In this document: positions 13,746 to 24,105 of the stretch, piece by piece | Numbering within the stretch: position 1 is the stretch's first letter | Layout of the letters: every line of letters starts with the position of its first letter | Assembly: GCA_030041955.1 (NCBI GenBank) | Contig: JASIAO010000225.1 | Location: forward strand, 1-43,215 | Direction: 5' to 3' | Source of the DNA: Acidobacteriaceae bacterium | GTDB taxonomy: Bacteria; Acidobacteriota; Terriglobia; Terriglobales; Acidobacteriaceae | DNA: 43,215 nucleotides | Notes under the pieces: model-generated | Database searches by the model: none | What the model was told of the DNA's origin: nothing | What the model saw: only the letters and a program-made list of their open reading frames with translations | Made by a program: the position numbers and the translations under genes

Positions 13746-14336
13746 CTATTTGCTCGTTTGCGACTGTCCAGGCAGCGCATCCAGCGCCAGATTCAGCTCC
13801 AGCACGTTCACCGTCGGCTCGCCGAGGAATCCGAACTGCCGTCCCTCGATGTGCGATTCCACCAGCGCCCGCACTGTTTCCTCCGGAAGGTGCCGCGCCG
13901 CCGCCACCATCGGCACCTGATACAGCGCGCCCTCCGGAGAAATATCCGGATCCAGCCCCGACCCCGACGTCGTCACCAGGCCGATGGGTACCGGTCCCTT
14001 TGCCTCGGGATCATCCTTGTGCCATTGAGCCACGGCTGCGTCGATCCGAGTCATCAGCGCCTGATTCGTTGGTCCCAGATTCGACCCGCCCGAGCTGGTT
14101 GCATCCCAGCCGTTGCCCGCCGCCGATGGCCTCGAGTGGAAATACCGCGGGCTGGTGAATCCTTGCCCGATCAGCGCCGACCCTACCACCTGACCGTCGC
14201 GTGTAATCAGGGAGCCGTTTGCCTTGGCCGGCATCATCAATTGCGCAAGGCCCGTCACTAACAGCGGGTATCCAATCCCCAGCAGGATGGTCGTGATAAT
14301 CGTGTAGCGAATCGCAATCACAAGCGTGTTTCGCAT
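13746..14336 (-). CDS. kdpC: K+-transporting ATPase subunit C
   Basis: IRYTIITTILLGIGYPLLVTGLAQLMMPAKANGSLI; TSGSGLDPDISPEGALYQ; FLGEPTVNVLELNLAL. Confidence 0.96.
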   Translation of the reverse strand: MRNTLVIAIRYTIITTILLGIGYPLLVTGLAQLMMPAKANGSLITRDGQVVGSALIGQGFTSPRYFHSRPSAAGNGWDATSSGGSNLGPTNQALMTRIDAAVAQWHKDDPEAKGPVPIGLVTTSGSGLDPDISPEGALYQVPMVAAARHLPEETVRALVESHIEGRQFGFLGEPTVNVLELNLALDALPGQSQTSK

Positions 14337-14350
14337 AAGAATCCTCTCCC

Positions 14351-16381
<2,031 letters not shown>

Positions 16382-16399: not shown

Positions 16400-18112
16400 C
16401 TACGAAAACAGCACGCCGTGGTGCAGCAGCAGATGTTCCAGGATTGGACCCAGGCTGAGCGCCGGGAAAAACGTCAGCGCGCCCACGATTAGAATCACGC
16501 TCGTCAGCAGCACGGTGAACAGCGGTGTATTCACCGGGAACGTTCCGGGCGAAGGTGGAACGCTCTTCTTCCGCGCCAGATTTCCGGCGAGAGCGAGCAT
16601 CGGTATCATCATCAGGAACCGGCCCGTCAGCATATTGAAGCCGGTCGTGATGTTGTAGAACTTCGTGTTGGCGTTGAGTCCGGCGAAGGCGGAGCCGTTA
16701 TTCCCGGCCGTCGAGACATAGGCGTAGAGAATTTCCGTCAGACCGTGCGGCCCATTATTTGCCAGGCTACTCAACCCTGCGTGCGTGAGCACTCCGATCG
16801 CGGTGAGCACGAGAATCACCAGCGGAAAGATGAGCACATATAACATCGTCATCTTGACGTCGTAGGATTCAATCTTCTTGCCGAGATATTCCGGCGTGCG
16901 CCCTACCATCAGCCCCGCGATAAACACCGACAGGACCACGTAGATGATCATGCCGTAGAGCCCCGATCCCACTCCGCCGAAGATAATCTCCCCCAGCATG
17001 ATGTTGATCAGAGGCACCATTCCTCCCAGCGGCATGTAGGAATCGTGCATCGAGTTGACGGCGCCGCAACTCGCATCTGTTGTGATCGTCGCAAACATCG
17101 AGGAGTCAGTGATGCCGAAGCGCGCCTCTTTGCCCTCCATGTTGCCGCCCGGCTGCAAGGCGCTGGCTTGCTGCGTCACACCGTGCAGCACCGGACTCGG
17201 TTGCGACTCCGCCCAATAACAGACGGTGAATCCCGCGGCAAACAGGATCGACATACAGGCAAAAATCGCCCATCCGTGCCCCGGCGAGCCTGTCATGCGC
17301 CCCAGCGTGACCGTCAGCGCACCGCCGATCAGGAAGATGAGGAACATCTCGATGAAATTGCTGAAGGCCGTCGGGTTTTCGAAAGGATGCGCGCTGTTCG
17401 CGCTGAAAAATCCTCCCCCGTTCGTGCCCAGCTCCTTGATCGCCTCCTGCGAGGCCACCGGCCCCTGCGCGATCGTCTGCGTCTGGTGTTCCAGCGTATG
17501 CGCCACCGTATACGGGTGCAGGTTCTGGATCACTCCCTGGCTCACCAGCACCAGCGCAAACACGATGCACAGGGGCACCAGTACATAAAGACACGTACGA
17601 GTAACGTCGACCCAGAAGTTGCCGATGGTCTTCGCCTCGCGCCGCGCGACCCCCCGCACCAACGCGATGGCCACCGCGATGCCAGCCGCCGCGCTGAAGA
17701 AGTTGTGATAGGCAAGGCCGGCCATCTGCGTGAAGTAACTCATCGTTACATCGTTGCTGTATGCCTGCCAGTTGGTGTTTGTGGTAAACGACGCCGCGGT
17801 ATTCCACGCGAGGAACGCCTCCACTCCGGGCAGATGCTGCGGGTTCCACGGCAGCACATGCTGTAGTCGCTCGAAGACATACGTGAGGATCAGCGAGACG
17901 AAGCTGAACAGCAGCATCGCCACTGTGTATTCCTTCCACGTCATCTCCTCATCGCTGCGGACCCCGGAGACGCGGTAGATCAACCTCTCGAAAGGCCGCA
18001 GGAAGTGGAGCTTCCCTTCGAACACCTTCGCCATGTAAATCCCGAGCGGGCGCACACAGACGAGGAGAACGACGAAATAGACGATAAATTGGAGCCAGCC
18101 ATTGGCGGTCAT
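16400..18112 (-). CDS. kdpA: K+-transporting ATPase subunit A
   Basis: WKEYTVAMLLFSFVSLILTYVFERLQ; NTAASFTTNTNWQAYS; ELGTNGGGFFSANSAHPFENPTAFSNF. Confidence 0.98.
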   Translation of the reverse strand: MTANGWLQFIVYFVVLLVCVRPLGIYMAKVFEGKLHFLRPFERLIYRVSGVRSDEEMTWKEYTVAMLLFSFVSLILTYVFERLQHVLPWNPQHLPGVEAFLAWNTAASFTTNTNWQAYSNDVTMSYFTQMAGLAYHNFFSAAAGIAVAIALVRGVARREAKTIGNFWVDVTRTCLYVLVPLCIVFALVLVSQGVIQNLHPYTVAHTLEHQTQTIAQGPVASQEAIKELGTNGGGFFSANSAHPFENPTAFSNFIEMFLIFLIGGALTVTLGRMTGSPGHGWAIFACMSILFAAGFTVCYWAESQPSPVLHGVTQQASALQPGGNMEGKEARFGITDSSMFATITTDASCGAVNSMHDSYMPLGGMVPLINIMLGEIIFGGVGSGLYGMIIYVVLSVFIAGLMVGRTPEYLGKKIESYDVKMTMLYVLIFPLVILVLTAIGVLTHAGLSSLANNGPHGLTEILYAYVSTAGNNGSAFAGLNANTKFYNITTGFNMLTGRFLMMIPMLALAGNLARKKSVPPSPGTFPVNTPLFTVLLTSVILIVGALTFFPALSLGPILEHLLLHHGVLFS

Positions 18113-18114
18113 GG

Positions 18115-18204
18115 TCAGAACTTCTCCGGATACAGCAGGGCTACGACAAGGTAGACCAGCAGAAATGCGGTGATGAGCAGGATGAAGAGAGTCGTGGTAT
18201 TCAT
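18115..18204 (-). CDS. kdpF: KdpF small subunit (29 aa), absent from the supplied ORF track
   Basis: Reverse-strand translation MNTTTLFILLITAFLLVYLVVALLYPEKF*: KdpF-like single-helix protein ending YPEKF, stop 2 bp upstream of the kdpA start. Confidence 0.9.
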   Translation of the reverse strand: MNTTTLFILLITAFLLVYLVVALLYPEKF

Positions 18205-18208
18205 CGGG

Positions 18209-18295
18209 TTACCTCAGCTTCTCGCACGCGCCCACATAGAGCAGCGCCACGACGAAAAACGCAATTGAGAAAACGATCATGAGAAGGTCGGTCAT
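18209..18295 (-). CDS. 28-aa single-helix membrane miniprotein upstream of kdpF, absent from the supplied ORF track
   Basis: Reverse-strand translation MTDLLMIVFSIAFFVVALLYVGACEKLR*; preceded by AAAGGA; 4 bp separate its stop from the kdpF start. Confidence 0.72.
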   Translation of the reverse strand: MTDLLMIVFSIAFFVVALLYVGACEKLR

Positions 18296-18305
18296 GGAAA
18301 GTCCT

Positions 18306-19805
18306 TTACCAGGATCCTTGCTTGCCGCCATACCACCATACCAGGCCAAGGGTGGCCGTATCCTGGTGGTTGACAGGCGCAGCAGGGTTGCTGGTGATGA
18401 AATAGCGAGTGTTGCTCCAGTCGCGACGGTATTCCAGGAACGCGTCGAATCCGTCGCCCAGCGTGTACTTGTAAGTGCCGGTAGCTTCCTTCAGTGCCTG
18501 AGTGGCATTGCTGAAGAGTCCGCTTCGGTCAGAGAGATATTCGCTTCGCGCCGCCAGCGCCGTCCGCGGGTCGATCTGGTACTGGAGATAGGCTGCTCCG
18601 CCATCGACGTGTTCCGGCGCCGACGAATCACCCGGCGCGGCGTTCGCCCATTCGCGCTCGATGTAGTAATCGCCCTCGCCGGCTACGGTCAGTTTTGACG
18701 TCGCCTGCCAGGTGACGTAGCTGTCAAAAATATCGGTCTTGCCATTGGGAGCGGGGGTAATCGGCGCTTCACAGAGTCCCGGCTGTAGCGGCACCGTACA
18801 ATTCGTGGCCGCTACGGTGTTCGGGTGATCCTGGCCCAGATAGTAGTTCATCGTCCAGCTCACCGCTTTCGCGGGGGTCAAAACGTAACCCCACAGCTCG
18901 TCCTTGTAACCATTCGTAGGCTCTGACTGATTCGTGCCGTTCACAACCCAGTAGTTCAGAGCCAACTTATTGTTAACTTGATAGTTCGCCTTCAGGCCGG
19001 CATGGTAGAAGGGCAGGAAGTAGAAGTAAAAAGACCTCGTGTAGTTCATCTGATCTTTGGCATAGTTCCCCTCGATGCCGAGAGAACTCGCCCATTTGCC
19101 CACGCTCAGGTTGAGGCCGCTGCCCAGGGGAGCGATGTACGATCCGTAAGCCTGGAAGATGTTCCGATAGATTTCCGGGCGCGGCTCGTTGGCCGGATTT
19201 CCCTGCAGCGTCTCCGTGGCCTGGCCGAACTGGAAATCGGTGCGAAAGCCATAGCGGCGATGAACGGTGAGATCGGGCTCGAGGTCGAAGATGAAGTCCG
19301 CCTGGCTGATGCTGAATGTGTTGCTCAATACATCATAAGCGCGCAGGTCGTTCACGCGGCCGGTCGGCTGGTTGAAGTTGTATTCGTAGTAGCCGTCGAA
19401 GTAGTAGTTCAGCGTCGCTCCTCCAGGCAGCGTTCCCGGCAGCCACGAAGTCACCGGCGTCGTCGATGATGCCGGCGCCGCCGCAGCCGAGGTCTGCGCG
19501 GGAAGGGGTGAACTCCCGCCGGAAATGCGGAGTTCTTCGGTCGCCGAAACGAGTGCGGCGGCGGATGTGGACCCCGCCGAGTCCGAAAGCAGGGAATGGG
19601 GCGACGCCGCTTCTCTGGAGTCGGAGATCGACGCCTGCAACTGACGATTCTGCTCTTCCAGCACTGATACCCGGCGCTGGAGGTTGAAGACCATCTGGCG
19701 CAGCTGCTCGAATTCCTGCACGCTCGGTGCGGTCTGCGCGTGAGTGACCGGCGTTCCCATGAAAATCAACAAAGAAAGCAAGGGAAAAGCGCGGATGAAG
19801 TGCAT
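18306..19805 (-). CDS. Outer-membrane beta-barrel porin (OmpL/bbp2-like) with N-terminal coiled coil
   Basis: Signal peptide MHFIRAFPLLSLLIFMGTPVTHAQ; coiled coil EFEQLRQMVFNLQRRVSVLEEQNRQLQ; YYFDGYYEYNFNQPTGRVNDLRAYDVLSNTFSISQADFIFDLEP; C-terminal ...TLGLVWWYGGKQGSW. Confidence 0.78.
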   Translation of the reverse strand: MHFIRAFPLLSLLIFMGTPVTHAQTAPSVQEFEQLRQMVFNLQRRVSVLEEQNRQLQASISDSREAASPHSLLSDSAGSTSAAALVSATEELRISGGSSPLPAQTSAAAAPASSTTPVTSWLPGTLPGGATLNYYFDGYYEYNFNQPTGRVNDLRAYDVLSNTFSISQADFIFDLEPDLTVHRRYGFRTDFQFGQATETLQGNPANEPRPEIYRNIFQAYGSYIAPLGSGLNLSVGKWASSLGIEGNYAKDQMNYTRSFYFYFLPFYHAGLKANYQVNNKLALNYWVVNGTNQSEPTNGYKDELWGYVLTPAKAVSWTMNYYLGQDHPNTVAATNCTVPLQPGLCEAPITPAPNGKTDIFDSYVTWQATSKLTVAGEGDYYIEREWANAAPGDSSAPEHVDGGAAYLQYQIDPRTALAARSEYLSDRSGLFSNATQALKEATGTYKYTLGDGFDAFLEYRRDWSNTRYFITSNPAAPVNHQDTATLGLVWWYGGKQGSW

Positions 19806-19904
19806 GGTCGGCCCCCGGACGAACTTTTTAGTGAAGCGTTTCAGCCGGAAATCCGGCATAAGGGAGTTGTGAAGGAGTCGTAAAGAGACCCCAACCAGCG
19901 CCGT

Positions 19905-21770
19905 CTAAAATTTGACCAGGATCGCGAAAGTAACGATCTGCTGGTCGCGGCGCATATCGGCCTGCCAGAGATCGGGGTAGGCTGGATTGGCGGCGCAGAC
20001 GGCCTTCGCTGCGGCGATATTGGCGGCGTACTCCTGGGAGTATTTCAGCCACGGCATCGCCGTGTACCCGATCCCGGAGTCGGCGGAGGTTGTCCCATTG
20101 GTGCAGGTAAAGTCGTCGGGGTTGCCGATGGAACTCAGCGTGGTTCCACCCGGAGGCGTTGAGCCGCCGCGGCCGGCCCAGTAGGGCGCATCCGAATGAC
20201 GGTAGCCATACTCCGTACGGAAGGTGATGTATTGTTTCGGCATGTAGTCATAGGTGATGGTGCCGTCTGTGCCGTGGAAGGGCTGCCCCGGATCTTCCGG
20301 CCAGTAAGCGCTGCCAGTCACCGCTGTGGCGCCGTTGATGGGGGGCAGCAGAACGAGATAGCGGCCGGGGTTGTTGATCTGGCCCCCGCCGAGGGTTAAT
20401 CCGTATCTGTCATGATTCAACCAGAACCGGTTATAGAACATCCAGCCAAGGAAACTCTGCTTCTGGTAATAAATCGCGGGAGTGGTGGCTGTCGCGGGCG
20501 TGAAGATCTTGTGATCGGCCGACCCGGCGCAGGCCACGCCGCTTCCGCTTTCGCAGCCGGCGTCTCCTGTAAAGGAGAACGCCATCCGATCGAGCTTGTT
20601 GTCAGGCCGATCATAATATTTCAGCTCGAAGCTGTTATCTGTGTGAAAGCGCGTACGGCCGTGGATGCCGAAATCATCTTCGCCGTATCCATAGTTATTG
20701 GAAATGATGTTGATGCTGTTGGTCGGGGTCCATTTGATCTGCCCGCCCAGCCCAGGCTTGGTCCCGTAGCGTGCATAGGATTGCCAGCCGTTGATAAACC
20801 ACGGCTCGATCTTGAGGTGCTGGGTAGGGAAGATCTGGACGCGGGCTCCATTGAAGAACCACGGAGTGTTGGAGGAAACAAATGAAGGCTGGTAGGCCCA
20901 GTTGTCGAAATTGTAGTAGCTGAATAGGCCGATATAGGACAGGAAAATGCCGCCGTCCAGGTTTACGCCGTGCATAACATTCCAGTGATAACCGCCGTAC
21001 GCCTCGGAAAGATAGCGATACGCCTGATCGAGGTCCCACTGGCCGCGCGAAACGCTGGCGTCGTTGCGCGGCGTGGTCGCGGAATACATGCCGAACTGCG
21101 TCATCAACCGGGCATGCACGTGGTCGACCAACAGGTCGCCGCCTACACCCATCTGTTCCAGCTGTACTTCCTGCGCGCGGAATACCTCACTGGATCCACC
21201 GATGGTGTCGTCGGCGGGATGATTGAAGTCCAGGTTGTAATTCGTATCCACCCGAATCTCGGGCGTGAAGTACTTCGTGCACAGCGGGCAATCGATGGTG
21301 CGCGGATTTCCGTTCAGCCAGCCCCACCACGCATCCGCAAAGGGCGTCACCTTGTCTACTGAAGTGCTGGTTTGGGCGGTCGTAGTGGCAGCAGAAGCCG
21401 CAGGTACAACAGAGGAGGCGCCGCTGATCTCCGGGTGAGTGGCGGAAGCCGTCTGGGTGGGCAGGAGGCGCTCTTTGGCAGCAGTCAGCTGGGCGGCGGT
21501 TTCGGCCGTCATGGCCTGAGCAGCGCTTGCCTGTTGCTGCGCCTTCAGCTGAGCTTCAAGTTCCGCGATACGGGCTTTCATCGCCTCGAGTTCCTGCAGG
21601 ATGACGGTATCGGTAGAAGAAGACGGCGCTGGCGGGTTCGCGCTCTTTACGTCGTTGCCGGATTCCGGGGGATCGCTCTGCGCGCTACAGACAGGGGCCG
21701 CAGTGACGAGGCCGAACAACACCAGAAAAAGAACGGACGCACGAAGACGCACGGCAGGGATTAGCGACAT
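19905..21770 (-). CDS. Outer-membrane beta-barrel porin-like protein with N-terminal coiled coil
   Basis: Signal peptide; coiled coil LQELEAMKARIAELEAQLKAQQQ; aromatic-rich beta segments; C-terminal ...QQIVTFAILVKF ending in Phe. Confidence 0.75.
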   Translation of the reverse strand: MSLIPAVRLRASVLFLVLFGLVTAAPVCSAQSDPPESGNDVKSANPPAPSSSTDTVILQELEAMKARIAELEAQLKAQQQASAAQAMTAETAAQLTAAKERLLPTQTASATHPEISGASSVVPAASAATTTAQTSTSVDKVTPFADAWWGWLNGNPRTIDCPLCTKYFTPEIRVDTNYNLDFNHPADDTIGGSSEVFRAQEVQLEQMGVGGDLLVDHVHARLMTQFGMYSATTPRNDASVSRGQWDLDQAYRYLSEAYGGYHWNVMHGVNLDGGIFLSYIGLFSYYNFDNWAYQPSFVSSNTPWFFNGARVQIFPTQHLKIEPWFINGWQSYARYGTKPGLGGQIKWTPTNSINIISNNYGYGEDDFGIHGRTRFHTDNSFELKYYDRPDNKLDRMAFSFTGDAGCESGSGVACAGSADHKIFTPATATTPAIYYQKQSFLGWMFYNRFWLNHDRYGLTLGGGQINNPGRYLVLLPPINGATAVTGSAYWPEDPGQPFHGTDGTITYDYMPKQYITFRTEYGYRHSDAPYWAGRGGSTPPGGTTLSSIGNPDDFTCTNGTTSADSGIGYTAMPWLKYSQEYAANIAAAKAVCAANPAYPDLWQADMRRDQQIVTFAILVKF

Positions 21771-21910: not shown

Positions 21911-22600
21911 CTACTCCGCACCGCCCTCGGGCACAAAGCGGTAACCCACCCAGGGTTCTGTCTGGATGTACTCCTTGCGCTCGCTGCCCTGAAGCTTCCT
22001 GCGCAGCTGGCCCACAAACACGCGCAAATACTCCGATTGCTGCGCCGCCTGCGCCCCCCACACTGCCGTAAGCAGAGCCCGGTGCGTCAGCACCTTGCCC
22101 GCATTCCGTGCGAAGTAGAGCAGCAAATCGAACTCGCGTGGTGTAAGGTGCACGGGTTTCCCGCACAGAAGTACGCTGTGGGCCGAAGGATCGACAACGA
22201 AATCGCCCGCTTCGATGGCGGACTCGGCCGGCCGCTCCGGGGTGCGTCGCAGGTGGGCGCGAACGCGTGCCAGCAGCTCCTGAATACTGAAAGGCTTGGT
22301 AACGTAGTCGTCGGCTCCCGCATCCAGCGCCTCCACCTTAACGTGTTCCTGGTCCCGGACTGACAGCACCAGAATCGGCGTGTGACTCTTGCGTCGCACG
22401 GCCCGACACAGCTCCACGCCGCTCATGCCCGGCATCATCAGATCGGTGATCAGCAGGTCGGGCTGCCATTCCTCGAAGAGGCGCAGCGCTTCCTCCGGAT
22501 CGTTGACCGTGCGCACGTCGTAGCGCTGCGCGGAAAGCGAGGCCCGCAATACCCTCGTGATTTGGATTTCGTCGTCGACAACTAGAATCCGCTCGGCCAT
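21911..22600 (-). CDS. kdpE: OmpR-family response regulator KdpE
   Basis: ILVVDDEIQITRVLRASL; ITDLMMPGMSGVELC; GADDYVTKPFSIQELLARVRAHLRR; winged helix LTPREFDLLLYFARNAGKVLTHRALL...GYRFVPE. Confidence 0.92.
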   Translation of the reverse strand: MAERILVVDDEIQITRVLRASLSAQRYDVRTVNDPEEALRLFEEWQPDLLITDLMMPGMSGVELCRAVRRKSHTPILVLSVRDQEHVKVEALDAGADDYVTKPFSIQELLARVRAHLRRTPERPAESAIEAGDFVVDPSAHSVLLCGKPVHLTPREFDLLLYFARNAGKVLTHRALLTAVWGAQAAQQSEYLRVFVGQLRRKLQGSERKEYIQTEPWVGYRFVPEGGAE

Positions 22601-22629: not shown

Positions 22630-24105
22630 ATGGAGAAGCATACCGCAGCGCGCATCCTCGGCCGTCTCGCCGTTGTTACTGGGGCGGCGTTCGCCCTGGT
22701 CGCGCTCTTCAGGGCAGCGCTGCCAGCGAATCAAACCACCGTGGCGCTGGCATTTCTCATGCTGGTGCTGCTAACCGCTTCGCGGTGGCGCCTGGTGTAC
22801 GCCGTGTACGCGTCGGTTTTGTGCACGCTTCTCTATAACTTCTTTTTCCTTCCGCCTATCGGAAAACTGACCATCCAGGATCCGCAGAACTGGGTCGCAT
22901 TAGCAGCATTTCTCTGCGCGGCTGTCCTGGTGAGCCACCTGGCAACGCGGGAGTCGGAGCATGCTGAAATTTCCGAGCAGCGGCGCCGCGAAGTCGAGCG
23001 CCTGTACGACTTCAGCCAGCAACTGCTGCTCACCGACGACTTGCGCAGCCTCGCGCGCACCACCCCCTCGGCCGCTGCTGCGACGTTTGGCTTTCGCGCA
23101 GTGGCTCTGTATGTGCGCGACGAGGACGCTGTCTATTACTCCGACCCTCGGAACGAGCTGTTGCCTGCGGTGGAACTGAAACTTGCGGCGAATCAGGGCG
23201 ACGTCGCGGTGATCCAGCGCGACGGATGCAGGGTCATTCCCCTCTCCCTGGGCATGCGCTCGCCCGGGGCACTGGCCGTGACCGATGGCGGGTATTCTGC
23301 GGAGATCTATGAGGCGATCGGCAGCCTCATCGCGATTGCTCTGGAGCGCGCCGCCGCGCTGGAACGCAGCAGCCGCCTCGAGGCATCCCGCGAGAACGAG
23401 CGTCTCAGGAGCGCCCTCCTCGATTCAGTGACCCATGATCTGCGCACGCCGCTGACCGCCATTCGCGCAGCCGCGACCACCCTGGTGAGTCAGCCCGACC
23501 TGCCTGATCCTGCGCGCCGGGAACTGGCCGTGGTCGTCGATGAGGAGAGTGCTCGTCTCGACCGGCTCATTGGGCAGGCAGTGGAGATGGCGCAACTCGA
23601 TGCCGAGGCGATCAGGATCGACGCGAAGCCGCAGGGGGTACGGGAACTGATCGAGACAACCCTGGAACAGATGCGTCCGCTGTTGCGCGGGCGTGTGGTG
23701 AGTGTGGAAGCTGCGGAGGGCTTGCCGAAAGCGCCTATGGATCGCGCGCTGATGCGTCGCGTGCTGCGACATCTGATTGAAAACGCCGCAAAGTATTCAC
23801 CTGCCGACTCCCCAATTACTGTCAGGGCAGCTCGAGACGACTACCGTCTGTTGGTGGCCGTGGCGGATCGCGGTCCAGGTATCGACGTGAGCGAGCAGCC
23901 CTTCGTCTTTGATAAGTTTTTTCGCGGCAGCAAACAGAAATCCCAGGTAACCGGCACCGGAATGGGGTTGGCGATCGCGAAGGCTATCGTGGAGGCGCAC
24001 GGCGGAGGCATTGAGTTGAAGAGCCACGCCGGCGAGGGATCGGAATTCATCTTCTGGGTCCCGCTGGCCGTGATGTCCGCGCAGCCTTCCCGCCCAAAAT
24101 CATAA
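22630..24105 (+). CDS. kdpD: KdpD-type sensor histidine kinase, short form (DUF4118 TM region + GAF-like + HisKA + HATPase)
   Basis: Four-helix segment NQTTVALAFLMLVLLTASRWRLVYAVYASVLCTLLYNFFFLPPIGKLTI; H-box DSVTHDLRTPLTAIRAAATTL; HATPase motifs LIENAAKYS, VADRGPGI, GTGMGLAIAKAIVEAHGG. Confidence 0.9.
   Translation: MEKHTAARILGRLAVVTGAAFALVALFRAALPANQTTVALAFLMLVLLTASRWRLVYAVYASVLCTLLYNFFFLPPIGKLTIQDPQNWVALAAFLCAAVLVSHLATRESEHAEISEQRRREVERLYDFSQQLLLTDDLRSLARTTPSAAAATFGFRAVALYVRDEDAVYYSDPRNELLPAVELKLAANQGDVAVIQRDGCRVIPLSLGMRSPGALAVTDGGYSAEIYEAIGSLIAIALERAAALERSSRLEASRENERLRSALLDSVTHDLRTPLTAIRAAATTLVSQPDLPDPARRELAVVVDEESARLDRLIGQAVEMAQLDAEAIRIDAKPQGVRELIETTLEQMRPLLRGRVVSVEAAEGLPKAPMDRALMRRVLRHLIENAAKYSPADSPITVRAARDDYRLLVAVADRGPGIDVSEQPFVFDKFFRGSKQKSQVTGTGMGLAIAKAIVEAHGGGIELKSHAGEGSEFIFWVPLAVMSAQPSRPKS

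Follow-up and report, generated by a model that had tools for sequence, protein, structure and literature searches.

A conserved short ORF preceding kdpF in many bacterial phyla encodes a putative membrane peptide and candidate accessory subunit of the Kdp potassium pump

Background

KdpFABC is the textbook high-affinity potassium pump, a hybrid of a channel and a P-type ATPase, which has been studied almost only in Escherichia coli; all Kdp structures and most of the biochemistry rest on the E. coli complex. The Kdp structures found in the PDB contain three near-identical KdpA sequences of 557 aa, which we take to be those of E. coli. KdpF (PF09604 / TIGR02115), a protein of about 29 aa with a single membrane helix, stabilises the complex in vitro.

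Small ORFs upstream of kdpA have a probable precedent in Clostridium acetobutylicum, in which the operon is transcribed as kdpZYABCXDE (cited in PMC5401905), with two small ORFs (Z and Y) before kdpA; the 1997 paper on this organism reportedly described them merely as putative hydrophobic peptides. Leaders of 120 nt and about 100 nt are reported to precede kdpF in Mycobacterium smegmatis (PMC5401905) and Caulobacter crescentus (PMC8552747), respectively. Here we describe a 28-aa ORF found directly before kdpF in a member of the Acidobacteriaceae. The window analysed is a 43,215 nt stretch (assembly GCA_030041955.1, contig JASIAO010000225.1, positions 1 to 43,215, forward strand).

Results and discussion

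Organisation of the kdp locus

Read along the minus strand, the genes run porin (BBP2), peptide, kdpF, kdpA, kdpB and kdpC (Table 1). The initial annotation had proposed a 28-aa ORF preceded by an AAAGGA site, 10 bp after the porin stop and 4 bp before kdpF, and this held exactly, with 10 nt separating the ORF from the porin stop (18306) and 4 nt from the kdpF ATG (18204). A single copy of the ORF is present in the source genome. An alternative TTG start would give a 46-aa frame; conservation begins only at the ATG of the 28-aa version. The likely Shine-Dalgarno site of kdpF lies in the final codons of the ORF, so the C-terminal codons serve a dual use, and the same arrangement was seen in copies from the same genus. 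The layout matches that of C. acetobutylicum, with two small ORFs before kdpA.

Table 1 Features of the kdp locus in the 43,215 nt window
Feature	Position	Strand	Evidence and remarks
OmpL-like porin (BBP2)	18306..19859	minus	PF07642, 1.1e-55; directly upstream of the peptide
Shine-Dalgarno-like AAAGGA	18307..18302	minus	6 nt 5' of the peptide ATG; overlaps the porin stop codon
Putative membrane peptide ORF	18295..18209	minus	28 aa, MTDLLMIVFSIAFFVVALLYVGACEKLR, followed by a stop codon; provisional name 'KdpZ-like' peptide
GAGG, likely Shine-Dalgarno of kdpF	18212..18215	minus	Within the final peptide codons CTG AGG TAA; 7 nt 5' of the kdpF ATG
kdpF	18204..18115	minus	29 aa; TIGR02115, 8.4e-8; PF09604, 1.4e-6
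kdpA	16400..18112	minus	PF03814, 2.7e-244; TIGR00680, 7.9e-226
kdpB	14351..16381	minus	P-type ATPase domains PF00122 and PF00702, position and sequence
kdpC	13746..14336	minus	Assigned by sequence and position alone, without family search

Two other features of the neighbourhood were observed. Two OmpL-like BBP2 porin genes stand in tandem and in the same direction directly upstream of the kdp operon (window 18306-21770, minus strand). KdpD is split: a histidine kinase with DUF4118 that lacks the KdpD sensor domain (window 22630-24105, plus strand) is divergent to an adjoining KdpE-like regulator (21911-22600, minus strand), and the KdpD sensor domain (PF02702) is encoded on another contig of the source genome, in a 568-aa frame (G000:C310:3677-4300).

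The 28-aa ORF is a protein-coding gene

A homologous in-frame ORF was found directly before kdpF in nearly all Acidobacteriaceae kdp loci of the first type examined, and in a 28-row alignment of copies from this family M1, D3 and C24 were invariant. Comparison of 25 independent pairs of related copies gave a pooled pN/pS of 0.25 and a Jukes-Cantor dN/dS of 0.17; the start codon and the last codons overlapping the kdpF ribosome site were excluded, and the value is approximate as the pairs were picked by nucleotide identity. Nucleotide differences at codon positions 1, 2 and 3 numbered 100, 54 and 201 in these pairs, an unmistakable third-position excess. The ORF is a protein-coding gene under purifying selection. 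The initial annotation was to be refuted if the reading frame were not conserved and showed no synonymous bias; the result was the opposite. Searches of Pfam and NCBIfam with the 28-aa ORF returned no family above the cut-off.

The consensus of the wider family is MxDLLFLxxTxxFFALAxAYVxACERL, with column conservation of 98% for D3, 85% for F14, 71% for Y20, 89% for C24, 90% for R/K26 and 95% for L27. These figures come from local matches that left out many actinobacterial C-termini, and in most Actinomycetota copies C24 is replaced. The sequence reads as a single hydrophobic helix whose N-terminal end is acidic (mean charge -1.0) and whose C-terminal end is basic (+0.9), which predicts N-out/C-in insertion. 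The single hydrophobic helix of the initial annotation held as a sequence pattern of hydrophobicity and charged ends, its topology being inferred. The conserved positions appear to lie on one side of the helix; the statistic is marginal (permutation p 0.049).

Linkage to kdp operons in Acidobacteriota

A six-frame search of 297 Acidobacteriota genomes, blind to gene context and using a profile built from Acidobacteriota copies only, found 79 peptide places, 71 of which preceded a same-strand kdpA by no more than 1 kb, at a median distance of 190 nt. Of the other eight, six were weak matches inside longer frames, one was at a contig end (G329) and one preceded an orphan kdpF (G076). In the same sample 41 kdpA places had no peptide, many of them from one family (f22) with divergent KdpA. 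Second-type kdpA genes of the Acidobacteriaceae had neither kdpF nor the peptide (7/7 loci).

Three side observations concern these loci. The second-type kdpA genes (L272-L278) give matches of about 650 bits, some lying directly after a kdpC-like gene. Many kdp loci of family f22 (L066-L089) have, in place of the missing peptide, a conserved ORF of about 60 aa before kdpF, roughly 90-340 nt 5' of kdpA, with two hydrophobic stretches (MHLVMPWFLPL...FWLIAQ); KdpF of those loci ends PE.FQ, and it is possible that the 60-aa ORF encodes a different accessory protein. The orphan cassette (L093; G076:C2, 3395..3115) consists of a porin, the peptide (MQDLIFSAVTIAFFMVSLAYARFCDRLN, a strong match), kdpF and another hydrophobic ORF, of 30 aa; no kdpA follows, and the genome has two kdpA genes elsewhere.

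Distribution across phyla

For the wider survey, 116 kdpA loci from named GTDB species were sampled by a nucleotide pattern encoding the KdpA motif GTNGGGFFNxN; the sample therefore holds pattern-matching loci only, without weighting by taxon. The Acidobacteriota-only profile identified 70 loci at ≥8 bits just upstream of kdpA, with no other match among 18,964 six-frame segments. After iteration the peptide was found in at least 84 of the 100 loci with sufficient upstream sequence, a lower bound because an obvious copy in Variovorax (L232) remained below the threshold. It was present in Alphaproteobacteria (20/20), Actinomycetes (20/23), Acidobacteriota (12/12), Betaproteobacteria (10/13), Gammaproteobacteria (4/6) and Myxococcia (3/3), as well as in Gemmatimonadota, Nitrospirota, Chloroflexota, Planctomycetota and one of four Bacteroidota loci. 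Plasmid-borne operons extend this range to Deinococcus and to Bacillota, with matches in Subdoligranulum (24.8 bits) and Bacillus badius (21.9 bits). Across many phyla, the family occurs almost only with kdp operons. The conserved family suggested by the initial annotation was confirmed, and is far wider than could be known from a single locus.

Short ORFs not confirmed by the profile occur at the same place in Listeria, Niallia and Bacteroides. That of Bacteroides and Parabacteroides (L141, L287) is a 31-aa hydrophobic ORF before kdpF ending KCVDWFE[KN]I, for which the profile gives no confirmation of homology. No peptide was found in the two Enterobacterales loci checked (Enterobacter and Entomohabitans).

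On a quickly built KdpA tree, presence of the peptide was clustered, requiring 9 changes against a mean of 13.3 after shuffling (0/500 shuffles as low), and peptide-bearing KdpAs fell on both sides of the midpoint root. The tree is consistent with an old trait that was lost repeatedly; this remains only a possibility, as the root is not established. E. coli-type pumps seem to have lost the peptide.

In the collected set of 217 loci, which is partly redundant as some were fetched twice, kdpF is the next gene after the peptide in 215, mostly at -4 to +14 nt, and in 66 the stop codon of the peptide and the start codon of kdpF overlap by 4 nt.

Comparison with described genes and existing annotation

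The peptide resembles KdpF in size, in its pattern of one membrane helix, in being an adjacent cistron of the same operon and, probably, in topology. It differs in conserving MxD...FF...Y..C[ED]RL, whereas KdpF conserves YL..ALL.PE[KR]F, with no detectable homology between them, and in being encoded before kdpF and absent from enterobacteria that have kdpF. Homology with Z of C. acetobutylicum is likely, judging by the homologs in Subdoligranulum and B. badius, the Z sequence itself not having been compared.

In relatives of the two species with described leaders, the ORF starts 77-80 nt (Mycobacterium; L172, L253) and 85 nt (a Caulobacter sp.; L199) before kdpF. This suggests that the mapped or proposed 5'-UTRs of M. 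smegmatis and C. crescentus coincide with the position of the ORF, a reading drawn from these relatives and not from the sequences of those two strains.

That the ORF was unannotated held only in part, for RefSeq lists some members of the family without assigning them to a functional family. WP_212667346.1, a 34-aa Mycetohabitans protein (MDLIYLAGIVLFLGLCMALAAGCDKLRRTPGGRS) encoded directly before kdpF (L284, 1308-1412), is named 'potassium ABC transporter ATPase', and two Azospirillum proteins also encoded directly before kdpF (WP_281280356.1 and WP_275451547.1) are named 'hypothetical protein'. Neither name rests on functional evidence, and the first misleads, as the protein is neither an ATPase nor an ABC transporter. 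No functional study of the peptide was found in the literature searched, which excluded most subscription journals; kdp goes unmentioned in the main text of a mycobacterial Ribo-seq paper.

A putative accessory subunit of the Kdp complex

We favour the reading that the peptide is a small single-pass inner-membrane protein and a second small accessory subunit of the Kdp pump beside KdpF. We put its probability at roughly 0.62, without binding, translation or phenotype data. The initial annotation had raised an additional Kdp accessory subunit as a possibility; this is now supported, yet only by inference, the grounds being operon linkage, coupling and conservation. Two features expected of a small accessory subunit are met: the protein is short, with one membrane helix and charged ends, and it is encoded and conserved together with a large complex. 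By analogy, CydX, AcrZ and similar proteins are tiny helices on large membrane complexes, encoded beside the complex or acting with it; no sequence relation to them is claimed and no binding has been shown.

In the model we propose, the peptide would be synthesised together with KdpF through translational coupling, and its helix would insert N-out/C-in, with the acidic Asp3 end outside and the Lys/Arg26 end inside. It may then pack against KdpA, KdpB or KdpF through the side chains of D3, F14, Y20, C24 and L27, and so packed would stabilise or tune the complex.

Several points count against a subunit. The peptide is absent from enterobacteria and some other lineages, so the pump can work without it; the helical periodicity of its conservation is weak, and C24 is not kept in most Actinomycetota copies. 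Operon linkage by itself would also suit a regulator acting on KdpD or on synthesis. A bolder version, in which Kdp is a five-subunit complex in most bacteria, the peptide is ancestral and constitutive, and E. coli KdpFABC is secondarily reduced, could as easily be wrong as right.

Alternative explanations

The alternative that survives best, though we consider it unlikely, is a regulatory membrane peptide that targets the KdpD/KdpE system instead of the pump, binding, for example, to the membrane portion of KdpD. Sensor kinases can have small membrane peptides as partners, as raised in PMC3618439, and a KdpD sensor domain was found in essentially every strong peptide-bearing genome of the phylum sample. 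However, kdp genomes that lack the peptide have KdpD just as often, and split and full-length KdpD occur alike in peptide-bearing genomes; the presence of KdpD therefore does not discriminate. Moreover, the peptide gene adjoins kdpF-kdpA and not kdpDE, and in the source genome the sensor domain lies on a different contig.

According to a second alternative, the ORF is a leader peptide or coupling device, the act of its translation and not its product controlling expression of kdpF and kdpA. In its favour, the ORF usually lies immediately 5' of kdpF, often overlapping it, and contains the kdpF Shine-Dalgarno site; coupling very likely does exist as a side effect. We nevertheless regard a mere leader as very unlikely, given residues conserved across phyla, the membrane-helix pattern and purifying selection. 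Its position also argues otherwise. In Deinococcus radiodurans, whose operon was published as kdpBAC with a promoter before kdpB (PMC5716572), the peptide is internal to the operon (kdpB-peptide-kdpF-kdpA-kdpC), and in Burkholderia arboris kdpF precedes it and kdpA follows it. Both positions fit a subunit better than a leader, although a further internal promoter in Deinococcus is not excluded. An RNA element or attenuator was considered separately and rejected: an Rfam search gave no match near threshold, and no terminator was found at the peptide site.

It is likewise very improbable that the peptide arose as a duplicate of KdpF, has since diverged and still performs the same role. The two share their size, likely topology and adjacency, with a loose visual likeness (VVALLY...EK). 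Profile-profile comparison gave hhalign probabilities of 0.8% with the first alignments and 0.1-3% with alignments of 192 and 231 sequences, and searches with the KdpF models PF09604 and TIGR02115 did not match the peptide; the claim of the initial annotation that it is distinct from KdpF was upheld. The cistron immediately before kdpA is kdpF and not the peptide, with B. arboris as the one exception.

Finally, short hydrophobic ORFs easily arise by chance, and small size and hydrophobicity are common among type I toxins, but a chance ORF or a toxin unrelated to Kdp is all but excluded by the selection, breadth and kdp linkage of the family, which has no strong copies away from kdp operons except in the one orphan cassette with kdpF.

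Conclusions

The ORF belongs to a broad and overlooked protein family, which has no family entry and no known function. For annotators it provides a missing family, together with a misleading RefSeq name to correct. If it is true that most bacteria encode a further conserved small subunit absent from E. coli, the composition, stability and regulation of the pump would need to be re-examined in other hosts; the Kdp pump of most bacteria may have a part that is missing from every E. coli structure.
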